This document shows positions 28,998 through 35,770 of a stretch of 64,000 bases of DNA, in pieces. The stretch is from Desulfobacterales bacterium (lineage in GTDB: Bacteria > Desulfobacterota > Desulfobacteria > Desulfobacterales > Desulfosalsimonadaceae): positions 310,001 to 374,000 of the forward strand of contig JAXHNP010000003.1 of assembly GCA_034520365.1 (NCBI GenBank), written 5' to 3'. Within the stretch, counting starts at the first letter, position 1. Each line of letters starts with the position of its first letter. The notes beneath the pieces are model-generated. The model was not told the origin of the DNA and did no database searches. It was given only the letters and a program-made list of their open reading frames with translations. The position numbers and the translations under genes were made by a program.

Positions 28998-29284
28998 CTC
29001 AACATCCCCTTGCTTTAAATTTGAACCATCCTATCAGAAGACGCATGTGCAACATACGGTTTTTTCTACTTTCCGACCGGATTTCAGGGCGTCCTGCCCG
29101 CCATAAAATACTGGAAAAATTTTAACCCTATGATTATCATACTGAAACTTATTGACAAAATGATATTAGAACCGTTAGTAAAGGAATACAACAGATACTC
29201 AAACCGACAAGCCACCGCCGCTTGCTTGGGCCACTTTGCCGGATACGGATATCCGGCTGCAGGCGCGGTAGATGGGATTTTAGA

Positions 29285-30415
29285 ATGGACAAAGTGCTTC
29301 TTGCAGACAGTAATCAGGAGACCCTGGAGAAGATCGGGAAAGGCTTTAAAGACCTGCATCATTTTGAGCTCCTGACCGCCACGGATGGCCAAACCGCCAT
29401 GGATGTCATCACCAAGAATAAGATCGCGGTTTTTGTGACAGCCGTGAATCTGCCCAAGGTTCACGGTGTTGAACTGATTGCTTTCATGACCCGGAAGCGC
29501 CCGGATACGCCCTGTATCGTGCTGGTGGATGCGGACACCCCCAAACCGTGGTTTCGCGACCGCATCGGGCACGAAAATGTGCTCTATTACATGCAGAAAC
29601 CGTTTCAATTCGGTAATCTGGCCTCCGCCATCTTTGTCGCCCAGAACTTAAAAGACGAGGGGTTGAGCCGTAAAGGCATCACCCTTCGCAACTTCCTGCC
29701 CCTGATGGAGATGTCCCGGCGGACCTGCCGGCTGGATGTGACCAGCGGCGGGCAGAAAAAGGGGTATTTGTATTTTGACCGCGGAATTCTTCTGGATGCG
29801 CACTATGAACATCTCTCCGGTGAACCGGCGGCCCGGGAAATGATCAAATGGGATCGGACCAGCCTTTCACTCTCAGAACTGCCCCAGGAGAAAGCCAAAT
29901 CCAAAAAAGTCATTAAATCCGAGCTGATGGAACTCGCCGACGGCCTGTGGGGAAAACCCGCCCAGGCGGGAGCCCGCGCGAAACCGCCGGAGCCAAAAGC
30001 CCAACCCGCCAATAAGCGGGGCGCCGGCTCTGGTGAAACCCGGCTTCAGACGGCCCTGAACCGATACGTCAACATGCTGCGCACGATTAAAGGCTACCGG
30101 GGGCTTGCCATTTTAAGCGCGGATGGCTCTGTACTGGCCTCTGATACGCCTGCTGAACCCATCGACTTTAAGTATTTTGCCGGGGCCTTCAATCAAATGC
30201 TCACCACCTGCCACCAGGCCACATTTCAAAAAGGATTTGATAAATGCAACGGGCTGACCGTACATACCACCAAAGGGCTGATCCTGATGATGTCCTCTGA
30301 TGTCATGAAAGAAGGCAATTTCCGCTTTCTGGTGTTAATGGCGCAGGACGGCAATGCCTTCTTCATGCAGATACAGCTCGCAAAACTCATTCCCAGTATT
30401 TTACAGGCCAAATAG
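29285..30415 (+). CDS. degenerate receiver-PATAN (DUF4388)-roadblock-like regulatory protein
   Basis: A 376-residue cytoplasmic protein. Residues 1-120 have the CheY fold (VLLADSN, YYMQKPF with the conserved Lys), but the phosphoacceptor Asp position is Ala53 (VFVTAVNLPKVHG), so normal phosphorylation is unlikely. Residues about 130-225 resemble the PATAN/DUF4388 domain (GYLYFDRGILLDAHYEHLSGEPAAREMIKW). After a Pro/Ala-rich linker, residues 255-376 resemble a roadblock/LC7-type domain (YRGLAILSADGSVLASD). Such combinations occur in motility and polarity signalling of delta-proteobacteria. Its function here is unknown. The start was chosen to match the receiver N-terminus; ribosome-binding site weak. 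The stop is TAG. Confidence 0.7.
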   Translation: MDKVLLADSNQETLEKIGKGFKDLHHFELLTATDGQTAMDVITKNKIAVFVTAVNLPKVHGVELIAFMTRKRPDTPCIVLVDADTPKPWFRDRIGHENVLYYMQKPFQFGNLASAIFVAQNLKDEGLSRKGITLRNFLPLMEMSRRTCRLDVTSGGQKKGYLYFDRGILLDAHYEHLSGEPAAREMIKWDRTSLSLSELPQEKAKSKKVIKSELMELADGLWGKPAQAGARAKPPEPKAQPANKRGAGSGETRLQTALNRYVNMLRTIKGYRGLAILSADGSVLASDTPAEPIDFKYFAGAFNQMLTTCHQATFQKGFDKCNGLTVHTTKGLILMMSSDVMKEGNFRFLVLMAQDGNAFFMQIQLAKLIPSILQAK

Positions 30416-30694: not shown

Positions 30695-30976
30695 ATGAAA
30701 AAAAAACAGAACCGACGGCTTTTCAAATACAAAGAGAATCAGCCATGGATGGAAAACGTCCAGCTCGTCATGCAGATCGGGCTGACCATGGTGGGATGCA
30801 TCCTGTTCTGTTTTTTTATCGGTTATTCGATAGATAAATGGCTGGGGGTCAAAGGGCCCCTCACTATTATTTTCACTTTACTGGGGATTGTCGGCGGAGG
30901 TGTGGTCGTCTATCGACAGATCATGGAAGCCATAGACACCGACAACCATGACGAAAAAAAGAATGGAAGCGGTTAG
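30695..30976 (+). CDS. atpZ: AtpZ/AtpI-family F0 accessory protein
   Basis: A 93-residue protein with two membrane helices (QLVMQIGLTMVGCILFCFFIG and TIIFTLLGIVGGGVVVY) and the family motif GYSIDKWLG between them. AtpZ-type proteins precede F0 genes and are thought to help c-ring assembly or cation supply. A later start (MENVQLVMQ, 30749) would also keep both helices. Its end overlaps the atpI start by about 29 bases. Confidence 0.75.
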   Translation: MKKKQNRRLFKYKENQPWMENVQLVMQIGLTMVGCILFCFFIGYSIDKWLGVKGPLTIIFTLLGIVGGGVVVYRQIMEAIDTDNHDEKKNGSG

Positions 30977-31355
30977 GGAAACAGAAAAGCACTACTGTTC
31001 GATTGCGCTTGGCATTGCCGTTATTGCCGCCATTATCTGCTTTATGCTGGCATTCAAACCCATTGGCAAGGGCCTGATCCTGGGCAGCCTTTTCAGCGCG
31101 GCCAATTTTATCCTCATGGGCGAGACCCTGCCCATGCGCATCGGCCGCAGCCGGAAAAAAGCGGCGGGCATATCTTTTTTATTAATTTTGCTGAGATATG
31201 TCTTGATGGCCATCCCTCTGGTCCTTTCCATTCAAATGGCTCAATTCCATCTGGCTGCCACAATTATCGGCCTCTTCAGCGTTCAACTGGTCATTATGTC
31301 CGAGCACATAAGCCGGCATATACGAATGAAAACCCGGAAATCTCAAGTCTTTTAA
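30948..31355 (+). CDS. atpI: ATP synthase subunit I
   Basis: A 135-residue membrane protein with four hydrophobic helices (IALGIAVIAAIICFMLAF, GLILGSLFSAANFILMG, ISFLLILLRYVLMAIPLVLS, AATIIGLFSVQLVIM). It matches the ATP-synthase I family, which promotes assembly of c subunits into the rotor ring, notably for Na+-type rings. It overlaps atpZ and is followed by atpB after 9 bp. Confidence 0.8.
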   Translation: MTKKRMEAVRETEKHYCSIALGIAVIAAIICFMLAFKPIGKGLILGSLFSAANFILMGETLPMRIGRSRKKAAGISFLLILLRYVLMAIPLVLSIQMAQFHLAATIIGLFSVQLVIMSEHISRHIRMKTRKSQVF

Positions 31356-31364
31356 GAAAGCGCC

Positions 31365-32039
31365 ATGGAAGATTTAGGACAAATTCATCAACTTATCGTG
31401 CCACTTTTCGGCCATGAATTGACCTTTAACTTAGAGCCGATCATCCAGACCTGGATTGTCATCATCGGGCTGCTTATCTTCGGGTATCTGGCCACCCGGC
31501 GCAAAGGAATTATCCCCAACCGGATCCAGGCCGTTGGCGAATTTTTTATTGATCAGTTTTACGGTCTGACCGAGGAGGCGCTGGATAAGGAGTTGAGCCG
31601 TAAATACGCCCCCATGATTACGGCCCTTTTCATTTTCCTGCTGTTTTGTAACTGGCTGGGCGTGCTGCCGCACTTGGGCGAGCCCACCAGTGATTTAAAC
31701 ACCACCCTCAGCATGGGAGTTATGGGGTTTGTCATCTCTCATTACGCGGGCATTAAGAAAAAAGGGTTAAAAGCCTACCTGAAAGCTTACTGCGAACCCT
31801 TATTCTTTATGATGCCGCTCAACATTATCGGCGAACTGTCCAAAGTTATTTCCATCTCCTTCCGTCTGTTCGGCAACATCATGGGCGGCGATATTATCGT
31901 GATCGTGGTCACCTATCTGGTATTCAGCCTGGTGCTTCCTCCGTTTCTGACGGCATTTTTCTTTATCTTCATCGGTGCAATCCAAGCCTTTGTCTTTACA
32001 ATGCTAACTTTGGTATACATTGCAGTGCAGGTTAATTAG
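31365..32039 (+). CDS. atpB: F0 ATP synthase subunit a
   Basis: A 224-residue polytopic subunit that forms the ion half-channels beside the c-ring. The essential stator arginine lies in SISFRLFGNIMGGD, and the C-terminal helix reads AIQAFVFTMLTLVYIAVQV. The length is typical of short a subunits. It ends 2 bp before the four-hairpin c-like gene. F1 genes (alpha, beta, gamma, delta, epsilon) are absent from the window, so F0 and F1 are in separate loci. Confidence 0.92.
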   Translation: MEDLGQIHQLIVPLFGHELTFNLEPIIQTWIVIIGLLIFGYLATRRKGIIPNRIQAVGEFFIDQFYGLTEEALDKELSRKYAPMITALFIFLLFCNWLGVLPHLGEPTSDLNTTLSMGVMGFVISHYAGIKKKGLKAYLKAYCEPLFFMMPLNIIGELSKVISISFRLFGNIMGGDIIVIVVTYLVFSLVLPPFLTAFFFIFIGAIQAFVFTMLTLVYIAVQVN

Positions 32040-32041
32040 GC

Positions 32042-33016
32042 ATGACATTCGATATTGATACGTGGGTTCAATTAGCGGCTTTTACGGGCGGCGGGCTGGC
32101 CATGGGGCTCGGTGCGATAGGGGCCGCATTGGGAGAAGGGTTTACTGCTGGCTTAGCCAATGAAGGGTTGTCAAAGCGACCAGAAAAATCAGGGGAAATC
32201 TTCAAAAACATGCTGGTCGGTCAAGCCATCGCCGAATCAGCGGCAATATTTGCCTTGGTAATTGCTGTACTCCTGCTTTTTGTGAATCCAGGCAGTTCTT
32301 ATTTACTGAAAGCCCCGGCGCTTTTGGCGGCCGGCTTAAGCATGGGAATTGGGGCCTGCGGGTCTGGGCTGGGCTCTGGATTTCCAGCTGGCGAAGCCTG
32401 CAGAGGTATAGCCCGCCAGCCACGGATGGGCAGCAATCTAACGACCAATATGCTCATCGGTGCCGCAGTCTGCCAGACGCCTGCTATTTTCGCTATGGTG
32501 GTTGCTTTGCTGCTCATATTTTCGGATTTTAGCCACATGCCCTTTTATCCGGCATGGGCAGCCCTTTTGGGGGCGGGCTTAAGTACCGGCTTGTCAGCCA
32601 TCGGCTCCGGAGTTGGCGGTGGGTTGGCAGCGGGCGCCAGCTGTGAAGGTATTGCACGACAGCCGGAATCGCTGGGCAATGTGACCACAACAATGCTTGT
32701 GGGACAAGCGGTTTCCCAGACACCGGCAATTTTTGGCTTATTGATAAGCTTCATCCTGCTTTTCAGGCCCGTTGCCGAAACTACCGCCCTCAGTGCAGCC
32801 ATGGCTGCCCTGGGGGCTGGCATTTGCATGGGATTTGGCGGCATTGGGCCGGGAATCGGCAATGGTTTTACGGCCAGGGAGGCAATCCGATGGATAGCCA
32901 GAAATTTAGAAAATACCGGCGGACTAACACGGACGATGCTTGTGGGACAGGCCGTCTCCCAGTCCACCGCAATTTATGCCATGGTTATAAGCTTGGTTTT
33001 GATTTTTGTTGTTTAA
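32042..33016 (+). CDS. four-hairpin c-like rotor subunit (eight membrane helices)
   Basis: A 324-residue protein made of four tandem c-subunit hairpins, each about 80 residues. Hairpin 1 keeps both carboxylates (GEG and GQAIAESAAIF). In hairpins 2 and 3 the ion-binding segment is QTPAIF and the first-helix residue is Ser or Gly. In hairpin 4 it is QSTAIY with Asn in helix 1. The essential Glu is thus replaced by Gln in three of four hairpins. Hairpin 4 resembles the neighbouring canonical c subunit most. Fused c subunits with fewer carboxylates are known in V-type and some acetogen rings (two hairpins); four in an F0 operon is unusual. It has a weak ribosome-binding site. Confidence 0.88.
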   Translation: MTFDIDTWVQLAAFTGGGLAMGLGAIGAALGEGFTAGLANEGLSKRPEKSGEIFKNMLVGQAIAESAAIFALVIAVLLLFVNPGSSYLLKAPALLAAGLSMGIGACGSGLGSGFPAGEACRGIARQPRMGSNLTTNMLIGAAVCQTPAIFAMVVALLLIFSDFSHMPFYPAWAALLGAGLSTGLSAIGSGVGGGLAAGASCEGIARQPESLGNVTTTMLVGQAVSQTPAIFGLLISFILLFRPVAETTALSAAMAALGAGICMGFGGIGPGIGNGFTAREAIRWIARNLENTGGLTRTMLVGQAVSQSTAIYAMVISLVLIFVV

Positions 33017-33058
33017 GGTAAACATTCAAATAAACATCTTTTTCAAGGAGGAAAAAAA

Positions 33059-33325: not shown

Positions 33326-33784
33326 ATGGAAATTATCAGCAAAGTTGTAATGGTCAGCATCAATGAGACGCTTCTTGTCGAGTTGATCTCGTTTTTGATC
33401 TTCCTCTTCCTGATCCACCGCATTATGTTCAAGCCGCTTCAGGAGGTCATGCAACAGCGGGATGACCATATCGACGGTCTGGGAAAGGAAATACAGAGCG
33501 CCAAAGATCAGATCAATGATTTGAATATCCAGCTTGAAAAGCAGGAAAAAGCGGCGATTGAGGAAGCCAACCGGCATCGCATTGAACTGGAAGATGAGGG
33601 TGCCAAACAGGCGGAATCCATACTGGATGACTCCAAAAAAGAGATCAATTCGATTAGGCTTAAAAATCAGGAGTTTGTTGACCAGCAGATTGCCGAGGCC
33701 CGCAAAACGCTGAAGACCGAGGCCGAACGATTGGCCATCCAAATGATGGAAAAAATCCTTGAGCGGAGGCTGGTTCGTGAATAA
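33326..33784 (+). CDS. atpF': F0 ATP synthase subunit b'
   Basis: A 152-residue peripheral-stalk subunit with one N-terminal membrane helix (LLVELISFLIFLFLIHRIMF) followed by a long charged coiled coil (EIQSAKDQINDLNIQLEKQEKAA). A second, different b-type gene follows, so the stalk is probably a b/b' heterodimer as in many delta-proteobacteria. It ends inside the start region of the next gene (8-base overlap). Confidence 0.85.
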   Translation: MEIISKVVMVSINETLLVELISFLIFLFLIHRIMFKPLQEVMQQRDDHIDGLGKEIQSAKDQINDLNIQLEKQEKAAIEEANRHRIELEDEGAKQAESILDDSKKEINSIRLKNQEFVDQQIAEARKTLKTEAERLAIQMMEKILERRLVRE

Positions 33785-34385
33785 CGCCGTCAGACATACA
33801 GCTACCCGATTCTTCCGGCTATTGGCAGCCGCCCTGTTTTTGGTGCCCCTGTTTTATACAAGCGCCATGGCAGGTGATGGCGCTGCCGACTGGCGACCCA
33901 TGTATGATACCATCATGATGTGGGTCAACTTCTTAATCCTCGCATTCGTTATCTATTATTATGGCAAAGCCCCCTTATTGAACTGGCTGAAAGGGCAGCA
34001 AAAGGAAGTTTCCGACGAAATTGGGGAGCTGGAACAACGCAAGCAGGCATTCGAACAGCAGATTGAAGAAACCCGCCAGATGATTTCAGACAGCAGCGCC
34101 CGGTTTGACAAGATCAAATCCCGGATAACCGAACAAGGCAAGCGCAAACGGCAGGAGATTATCGATCAGGCCAATGAACAGAGCCGTAAAATGCTTGAGA
34201 TGGAAAAGAAAAAAGCGGCCAACCAGATTGCTCAGGCCAAACAGCTCCTCATGGCCGAACTGACGGATTCCGCCAGCGACAAGGCCCTAAATCGGCTGCC
34301 CCAGGAAATTACCGACGCTGACCAGGATAACATGCTGTCGCTCTACATCAACCAGATCACCCAGTACGCTGAACAAACCGGCTGA
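33777..34385 (+). CDS. atpF: F0 ATP synthase subunit b
   Basis: A 202-residue peripheral-stalk subunit. GTG at 33777 is chosen because GGAGG lies seven bases before it; a TTG six codons upstream overlaps that site. The protein begins with a signal-peptide-like segment ending near TSAMAG, then a membrane helix (MWVNFLILAFVIYYYG) and a long coiled coil (LEQRKQAFEQQIEETRQMI). N-terminal presequences on subunit b are seen in some delta-proteobacteria. This is the last gene before the terminator at 34446. Confidence 0.85.
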   Translation: MNNAVRHTATRFFRLLAAALFLVPLFYTSAMAGDGAADWRPMYDTIMMWVNFLILAFVIYYYGKAPLLNWLKGQQKEVSDEIGELEQRKQAFEQQIEETRQMISDSSARFDKIKSRITEQGKRKRQEIIDQANEQSRKMLEMEKKKAANQIAQAKQLLMAELTDSASDKALNRLPQEITDADQDNMLSLYINQITQYAEQTG

Positions 34386-35136: not shown

Positions 35137-35469
35137 TTGAATAAGGTCGGCACGGTGGCCGACCCTACGCTTCCATACCCCATCGTAGGGCGGATAAGCA
35201 TCGTAGGGCGGATAAGCGCCAGCGCATCCGCCAATAACCAGCGCATCCGCCAAAAATAATTTGTTCTAACCGCAAAACCCATAACCACGGTCCTGTTAAC
35301 GGACAATTAGTCGGCACGGTGGCCGACTCTACAACGCATGTGGCCGTAGTACAAACCACCCTACGCTTGAATAAGGTCGGCACGGTGGCCGATGAATAAG
35401 GTCGGCACGGTGGCCGACCCTACGCTTCCATACCCCATCGTAGGGCGGATAAGCGTGAGCGCATCCGCC
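35137..35469. repeat. mixed repeat cluster: 63-bp direct repeat, second palindrome family and REP units
   Basis: The spacer 35061-35770 has no gene except near its end. It contains a perfect 63-bp direct repeat (35137-35199 and 35393-35455), four copies of the imperfect palindrome GTCGGCACGGTGGCCGAC (35146, 35310, 35376 and 35401), one partial REP (35184-35199) and two full R-orientation REP units (35203-35232 and 35440-35469). A related 'gcaagccaccgtgcccgcc' variant lies at 35117. Confidence 0.85.
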
Positions 35470-35770
35470 AAAACGTCGATAGGACAGACCACCATGCCTG
35501 CCTGAAAACAGATAAAACCCATTCACCGTGACCGTGGGTGGAAAAATCGAGACTGTGGCAAAATCGAGACTTGACAAAGCGCCTTTATGCCGTTACTTAT
35601 AAACTATAAATTATAGCTTTAACAAAAAAATATTTACATTTCCACACAGGCGGCCAAAAGGTCGTCCCTATATTAGATGTGCTGTTATCGCCGGTATACC
35701 AAGATTTTTACGCTAAGGGTACGGGCAATGCAGCTGTTCAACATTTTTAACACGAAAATCGGGGGGTAGC

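Follow-up and report, generated by a model that had tools for sequence, protein, structure and literature searches.

A fused F-type c subunit with lost ion sites in an F0 gene module without its own F1 in Desulfobacterales

The number of ions that a rotary ATP synthase spends per ATP is normally fixed by the number of identical c subunits. In the DNA analysed here (64,000 nucleotides of a Desulfobacterales genome, referred to as the window), one gene of an F0 operon encodes a long c subunit (c4 in the window) of four hairpins, of which only the first retains the ion-binding carboxylate, and the question is whether such a protein can be a working part of a rotor and what it would then do to the ion ratio. 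We conclude that the long c is a real and conserved feature, which we read as a further form of the hybrid Na+ rotor, located in an F0 module without its own F1; from its sequence we infer an F-type rotor (c) subunit that probably uses Na+. Hairpins that keep the carboxylate are called live, those that have lost it are called dead, and the pattern of a long c is written with one letter per hairpin.

Table 1. The F0 operon of the window, with the site codons of the long c subunit (positions are those of the window)
Feature	Position	Strand	Properties and basis
AtpZ/gene-1-like small membrane protein (Na_Z)	30695..30976	+	PF09527 ATPase_gene1 58 bits, cut-off 26.6
AtpI-like subunit I (assembly factor)	30948..31355	+	PF03899 31 bits, cut-off 25.1
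F0 subunit a, RLFGN motif	31365..32039	+	PF00119 174 bits; TIGR01131 142 bits, above cut-off
Long c subunit (c4)	32042..33016	+	324 aa; four PF00137 stretches; carboxylate in hairpin 1 only
Hairpin 1 live-site codon, Glu65	32234..32236	+	sequence
Hairpin 2 dead-site codon, Gln145, motif QTP	32474..32476	+	sequence
Hairpin 3 dead-site codon, Gln226, motif QTP	32717..32719	+	sequence
Hairpin 4 dead-site codon, Gln307; QST..Y, donor residues kept	32960..32962	+	sequence; donor rule
c1 Shine-Dalgarno AAGGAGG	33045..33051	+	sequence
c1, single-hairpin Na+-type c, 82 aa	33059..33307	+	E32, E65, VEST..Y; PF00137 71 bits
F0 subunit b'	33326..33784	+	PF00430 57 bits
F0 subunit b	33759..34385	+	PF00430 61 bits; TTG ORF start, GTG at 33777 is an alternative

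Profile searches place c4 among the F-type c subunits: PF00137 (Pfam) scores 198 bits against a curated cut-off of 24, divided over four stretches, and TIGR01260 (F-type c) scores 154 against a cut-off of 44. The Asp or Glu in helix 2 of every hairpin by which F-type c subunits are recognized is present in one hairpin of four, and the genomic context of an F-type c, an F0 gene set with a, b and b', is present as well. The initial annotation had described four hairpins with the carboxylate in the first only and a helix-1 Glu likewise confined to hairpin 1, and both statements are borne out by the exact open reading frame, the Pfam stretches and the residues themselves, which read E, Q, Q, Q in helix 2 (the dead hairpins showing QTP, QTP and QST) and E, S, G, N in helix 1. 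An AF2 model of c4, built from an alignment of 15 sequences, is helical throughout (mean pLDDT 94, pTM 0.89), with the second helix broken at QTP in hairpins 2 and 3 and unbroken in hairpins 1 and 4. A V/A-type K subunit was considered and rejected, given that the V-type models listed all score below their cut-offs and that the live hairpin of c4 is the first, whereas the K subunit of E. hirae carries its carboxylate, E139, in the second (PMC2359735).

The operon has the order Z-I-a-c4-c1-b'-b and encodes F0 only; no delta, alpha, gamma, beta or epsilon reading frame was seen downstream in the list of reading frames to 37.5 kb. The RLFGN motif of subunit a is presumably the site of the stator Arg, and the AtpZ-like reading frame had no match among the NCBIfam models. 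Only 42 bases separate c4 from c1, and c1 carries the full set of Na+ ligands (E32, V63, E65, S66, T67 and Y70). The operon was also compared with the N-ATPase, a second F-family rotary enzyme that occurs beside an ordinary one, as this F0 does; the identification was rejected because the N-ATPase has its own F1 and its own gene order (beta and epsilon before a, c, b, alpha and gamma), while the operon of the window is without F1 genes. That N-ATPase order was seen in other loci of the genomes examined. With respect to the locus as a whole, the initial annotation was accurate on the hairpins and silent on the adjoining c1, the absence of F1 from the operon and the spread of the trait, and the absence of another atpE from the genome, which it had proposed to confirm, did not hold: a third c is found at contig C2:24685-24873.

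The search for long atpE homologues that was also proposed there gave matches in 145 of 291 genomes of the order, from 91 of 138 genera, at E <= 1e-24, a threshold that almost only long c passes; the 291 genomes are a draw from a larger group. A single-genome oddity is rejected. In a sample of the family, 33 of 36 genomes match at E <= 1e-5, ordinary c included, and in a sample of the phylum 43 of 395 genomes match the profile at 1e-45, nine of the 43 being from the order. Of 190 confirmed loci the best 80 were retained, and the species named among their holders include Desulfatibacillum alkenivorans, Dethiosulfatarculus sandiegensis, Desulfocarbo indianensis, Desulfacinum infernum and Desulfonema magnum. 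The hairpin pattern is EQQE in Desulfatibacillum alkenivorans DSM 16219, EQE in Desulfonema magnum and EQQQE in both Desulfocarbo indianensis and Dethiosulfatarculus sandiegensis.

The long c of relatives has mostly three to six hairpins with one to five dead sites. From 184 distinct multi-hairpin reading frames, four partial ones were dropped, and the remaining 180, which are distinct sequences rather than independent lineages and of which five have lengths that misfit the hairpin count, show the patterns EQQQ (63), EQQE (57), EQEE (16), EQQQQ (12), EQQQQQ (9), EQE (8), EQQQE (5), EQEQ (3) and EQQ (3), with four single cases. Nearly all 180 have a live first hairpin and a dead second one. Those that do not fit are L237, whose gene is probably frameshifted, and L215, where a weak extra match moves the hairpin count. 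Outside this set, one genome has a two-hairpin EQ form (G532), four have EQE (G376, G488, G645, G628) and one has two hairpins that are both live (G438). The lost carboxylate is replaced by Gln in 459 of 460 scored hairpins and by Ser in the remaining one (hairpin 4 of L161, genome G221). Since decay of a Glu codon would be expected to yield several different residues, Gln, which is neutral and of the same shape, was probably selected.

Several loci depart from the usual arrangement. A second copy in G071 (L103/L172/L308) is a complete EQQE long c that stands alone, with neither c1 nor F0 genes in 6 kb, in a genome that also has a normal long-c locus (L102). Second EQQE loci with c1, b' and b, where Z, I and a are not in the stretch read, occur at L076 (G183) and L230, and G183 also carries an EQQQ locus (L075). 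The long c precedes a in L073 (G104; Z-I-c4-a-c1-b'-b) and is followed by two one-hairpin c reading frames in L182. In G438 (L301) a one-hairpin c precedes the two-hairpin c with both sites live, F1 not being in the stretch read; dead sites are thus not obligatory for such an F0.

The geometry of the Na+ site relates each hairpin to its neighbour. In a Na+ ring such as that of F. nucleatum, E65 and E/Q32 of a site come from one subunit and V63 and S66 from the adjacent subunit, while Tyr70 bonds Glu65 and Thr67 holds a water (PMC3692424); the residue numbers of E. hirae (PMC2359735) imply that in fused proteins the donor is the N-terminal neighbour hairpin. Over the 180 reading frames, Tyr70 is retained at 264 of the 287 junctions that precede a live hairpin versus 3 of the 459 that precede a dead one, and Thr or Ser at position 67 is kept at 261 of 287 versus 18 of 459. 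A live hairpin followed by a dead one has Tyr70 in 0 of 182 cases, and in the EQEQ proteins L223 and L234 the live hairpin 3 carries TP..F before the dead hairpin 4. The donor residues therefore track the state of the next hairpin and not that of their own. The last hairpin, which would face c1, has the residues S, T and Y in all 180 proteins, although 92 of these last hairpins are without a carboxylate of their own.

The rule also held in seven loci with two to five hairpins (L301, L302, L304-L307 and L310); it is obeyed in G438 (L301), where both hairpins are live, and by the long c of G532, G376, G488, G645 and G628. Against the rule, Tyr70 is missing at 23 of the 287 live junctions. On a tree of 120 of the 140 four-hairpin reading frames (thinned at 90% identity), E65 changes eight times in hairpin 3 and five times in hairpin 4; in the three well-supported independent pairs the donor follows in 1.4-1.5 and opposes in 0.0 on average (one opposing pair appears in a few of 200 pairings), which with so few independent changes is not significant. 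The c1-type subunits of the long-c loci read VEST..Y in 167 of 169 cases, with E32 in 162 and Q32 in six. Taken together, the junction residues suggest a ring in which the hairpins follow one another as they do along the chain and the final hairpin meets a live partner, most simply c1.

All hairpins appear to be under similar constraint. The median dN/dS is between 0.043 and 0.062 per hairpin for the four hairpins (83 of 908 close pairs, each sequence being used at most twice), with dS medians of 1.1-1.3, which is near saturation, and dS usable in 64-70 of the 83 pairs. Dead hairpins are thus about as constrained as live ones, and gene decay or a sequencing artefact is rejected on the ground of a dN/dS of about 0.05 and matches in half of the order sample (145 of 291). 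In other F-type rings the Arg of the polar loop contacts the central stalk; here it is conserved at each hairpin in 120-138 of 140 four-hairpin proteins, and less so in hairpin 1 of the five-hairpin ones.

Long c and c1 go together and differ in their expected dosage. For 175 of 176 long-c reading frames with enough flank, c1 is in the same locus and on the same strand (165 within 500 bases, seven in overlapping reading-frame calls, two further down and one upstream), the remaining case being the second copy in G071 (L103/L308); in four further reading frames the flank was too short to score c1. Among the 161 loci with both starts scorable, with the best start in a fixed range taken for each gene, the median duplex energy of the ribosome-binding site is -4.8 kcal/mol for long c and -10.5 kcal/mol for c1, and the c1 site is the stronger in 158. 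A weak site for long c and a strong one for c1 fit a ring of one long c and many c1. The weak site and the one isolated copy without c1 could also mean that the long c stands outside a working ring composed of c1 only, as an assembly aid or as a condition-specific protein; we consider this improbable in view of the purifying selection in all four hairpins, the retention of the loop Arg in each of them and the donor residues kept before a live neighbour, the boundary with c1 included. The opposite composition, a ring of long c only (for example, three c4 with three ions per turn), could use the donor residues of the last hairpin to face hairpin 1 of another long c. It is very improbable for several reasons: c1 is nearly always in the locus and has a strong start site, proteins of three, four, five and six hairpins do not all divide a ring of about 11, and one ion per ATP needs about 518 mV at 50 kJ/mol by arithmetic.

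A mixed ring of long and single c subunits has a known relative. Hybrid rotors with a two-hairpin c are known from acetogens (PMC7911925), and by both fold and sequence the nearest solved structure to the long c is the two-hairpin subunit of A. woodii, there named c1 (4bem_J); PDB entry 4bem contains nine chains of c2 and one of c1. This subunit reads ETS..F and then QTT..Y, which is the same donor rule as in the long c. In A. woodii and Clostridium aceticum, too, a long c lies beside a one-hairpin c in one operon, the one-hairpin c carries Na+ ligands as the c1 of the window does (PMC7911925), and the first hairpin is live with a later hairpin changed from E to Q. The differences are in number and context: the long c of A. 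woodii has two hairpins with one dead site, compared with four hairpins and three dead sites in the window and mostly three to six hairpins and up to five dead sites in relatives; its operon is a complete F1F0 operon, unlike the F0-only operon of the window; and its helix-1 ligand is Gln where the window has Glu. The ring of F. nucleatum (PDB 3zk1) shares E32, V63, E65, S66, T67 and Y70 with the c1 of the window and E32 and E65 with hairpin 1, but it is a homogeneous c11 with one hairpin per subunit and 11 sites (PMC3692424), whereas a mixed ring is proposed here. Tandem fusion of more than two hairpins is shared with archaeal K subunits, which have three hairpins in Methanocaldococcus jannaschii and 13 in Methanopyrus kandleri (PMC2359735); those are A/V-type proteins, and in contrast to the long c the M. 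kandleri subunit retains the Na+ ligands in every one of its 13 hairpins (PMC2359735).

An F0 module without F1 genes raises the question of which F1 it could turn. The source genome (4.33 Mb in 8 contigs, 99.4% complete) has one alpha/beta pair, one gamma and two F-type a, which gives two F0 and one F1 over three contigs. The other F0, on C2 at about 24.6-26 kb, consists of Z, I, a and a 93-residue c, with no b, and the only b', b, delta, alpha, gamma, beta and epsilon set lies on C6 (1342-1348 kb), so that the ordinary ATP synthase is split over contigs. A third PF00006 match, on C2, scores far below alpha and beta and is, we assume, probably a flagellar-type ATPase. In the alignment the c of the other F0 has Gln32, Glu65, Ser66 and Tyr70, with Met63 and Leu67; that F0 is labelled "H+-type" because its c is without Thr67 and Val63, a label that does not settle the ion. 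The a subunits of the two F0 are 33-34% identical, and b' and b of the window are 22-26% identical over 139-196 residues to those beside F1, a likeness that fits stalks reaching the same F1.

The same surplus was found in other holders. The whole set of Z, I, a, long c, c1, b' and b is present in 93 of 107 loci examined, which are part of the loci collected; most of the others are cut off where the contig stops or lack a single small gene. F1 genes next to long c were found in none of 27 stretches of 15-17 kb from the order. Among the best 80 of 190 confirmed loci, F1 genes stand in line with long c in L242, L243 and L249, and L195 has only a distant beta-like reading frame on the opposite strand; L284 and L285 are complete Z-a-c_n-c1-b'-b-delta-alpha-gamma-beta-epsilon operons. 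The F1 in line is complete in L249, L284 and L285, and in L242 and L243 as far as the contig goes; these loci belong to relatives distant from the genome of the window. In some genomes with long c beside F1, the other F0 is then without an adjoining F1.

Gene counts were made in 68 holders, namely 34 chosen from the order (mainly well-assembled genomes) and all 34 phylum-sample holders outside it, some of which do not have the three- to six-hairpin form (G438, G532 and G543, the last ending at a contig end after two hairpins). All 68 have at least two F-type a. The number of a (PF00119) minus the number of gamma (PF00231) equals one in 64 of them, or 63 as listed, the difference being G012, whose gamma is counted once from two contig-end pieces; this includes 33 of 34 holders in the order and 31 of 34 elsewhere in the phylum, and the exceptions are G089 in the order and G530, G543 and G616 outside it. 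Ten genomes (G328, G339, G400, G435, G461, G478, G508, G523, G550 and G570) have gamma at most about 6 kb from the a of the long-c F0. The stretches read around their other F0 showed no F1 gene, two of them being cut short nearby where the contig stops, and in one of the ten (G400, L293) the c of that F0 reads as two hairpins. An N-ATPase is probably present in addition in six of the 34 holders of the order, which have a third a and a second gamma. For 24 genomes of the order that gave no match to long c, taken from lists that name only part of the match-free genomes, the number of a is one in 19, two in four and none in one; the second a of the four adjoins N-ATPase-like genes, of which G076 shows a, c, b and alpha only, on a short contig. 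In these samples the surplus F0 goes with long c, whichever F0 the F1 adjoins. We infer that the two F0 may physically share the one F1.

A full second "ectopic" F0, attributed to duplication and perhaps derived from Thermotogae, was described in Desulfococcus oleovorans (Koumandou and Kossida 2014, PMC4154653). By description it resembles the F0 of the window in being a full complement outside the main locus of a deltaproteobacterial sulfate reducer; the available portion of PMC4154653 has nothing on extra hairpins, lost carboxylates or a shared F1 for it. The same paper suggests that most such duplications are leftovers, and in the genome of the window the long-c F0 is indeed without F1 genes. 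A leftover without function is nevertheless extremely unlikely here, given a dN/dS of about 0.05, a long-c match in half of the order genomes and a whole gene set in 93 of 107 loci.

The reading that we favour, and regard as moderately probable, is that one long c joins several c1 in a ring that moves fewer ions per turn and docks on an F1 common to two F0. One long c would replace as many neighbouring c1 as it has hairpins, c4 taking four consecutive places, and c1 from the next gene would fill the remaining places. Hairpin 1 and the copies of c1 would load and unload Na+ at subunit a, while hairpins 2-4, with Gln, would pass as neutral and carry nothing. With 11 hairpins, which is an assumption, the ring of the window would move about three ions fewer per turn, 8 instead of 11, and one to five dead hairpins would give 10, 9, 8, 7 and 6 Na+ per turn. 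The F0 (a, c, b', b, I and Z) would act as an interchangeable membrane motor without F1 subunits, and the long-c F0 would probably dock on the single F1 of the cell, which would also serve the other F0. The mixed ring with fewer ions per turn had already been put forward in the initial annotation, and it gains support at the level of sequence from the co-location with c1, the donor match, the ribosome-binding sites and the A. woodii relative. One point stands against it by arithmetic: in an 11-ring the live sites on either side of three consecutive dead hairpins are about 131 degrees apart, which is more than one 120-degree step of F1.

Such gearing has an energetic price. The computed force for synthesis at 50 kJ/mol is 141 mV with 11 sites, 194 mV with 8 and 259 mV with 6, and at 32 kJ/mol, the phosphorylation value cited for A. 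woodii on H2 + CO2 (PMC5662883), it is 90, 124 and 166 mV, respectively. More ATP per ion is obtained only with a high enough force or a low phosphorylation potential. The view that a low ion ratio suits life at the thermodynamic limit has been put forward for acetogens (PMC7911925) and was also the rationale given in the initial annotation; since synthesis with fewer ions per ATP, at a fixed phosphorylation potential, demands a greater sodium-motive force, this rationale is not established.

The same energetics allow the hybrid ring to be read in the other direction, as an ATP-driven exporter of Na+ working via the shared F1, with the other F0 being used for ATP synthesis. A ring with fewer sites can pump against a higher force (259 mV for 6 sites at 50 kJ/mol), every sampled holder has at least two F-type a, and duplication with loss of a site is a route from synthase to pump. 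We hold this reading to be unlikely, although it deserves weight, considering that rings of this kind serve Na+-coupled energy conservation in A. woodii and C. aceticum (PMC7911925) and that the two Rnf/Nqr-type clusters in the genome, which are possible Na+ pumps, could supply the Na+ gradient.

Extended beyond the window, the geared-down synthase could mean that many Desulfobacterota have a gearbox, with one F1 and two exchangeable F0, one with an ordinary ring of single-hairpin c (presumably for H+) and a Na+ one that is permanently geared down by a fused c of mostly three to six hairpins, of which one to five are dead, with evolution adjusting how many. We offer this generalization tentatively, at somewhat less than even confidence. 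If the ring is as proposed (6-10 sites in an 11-ring), its number of ions per turn would be unusually low for an F-type motor. The genes encode a series of mostly one to five permanently neutral rotor positions, mostly in a row, which, if the proposal is true, would amount to a test of how far elastic coupling bridges unpowered rotation; and with two F0 per F1 the cells could run one F1 in different gears and perhaps with different coupling ions. The trait sits in a major group of sulfate reducers, and cultured holders exist.

Parts of this picture have precedents in the literature. Two to four copies of atpE were noted in Desulfatiglandales (PMC13343851), and the ProAD paper, which counts enzymes with all core subunits, says of c/K subunits that their hairpins can number two or more and that any one of these may or may not bear a site (PMC11738941). 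Among the literature matches listed, which lie mostly outside subscription papers and were available in part, none gave an F-type c of more than two hairpins in a given organism, an F1 common to two F0, the three- to six-hairpin F-type series, the donor rule or the count of two F0 to one F1, and nothing on long c was found in the available portions of PMC2702500, PMC11887813, PMC5109826, PMC13101534 and PMC4103992. Two observations concern the surroundings of the operon in the window. Downstream, positions 35181-35571 contain three short tandem duplications (18, 25 and 17 bases) with no clear gene there, and upstream, positions 29222-30415 encode a response regulator receiver domain together with a DUF4388 match slightly below its cut-off.
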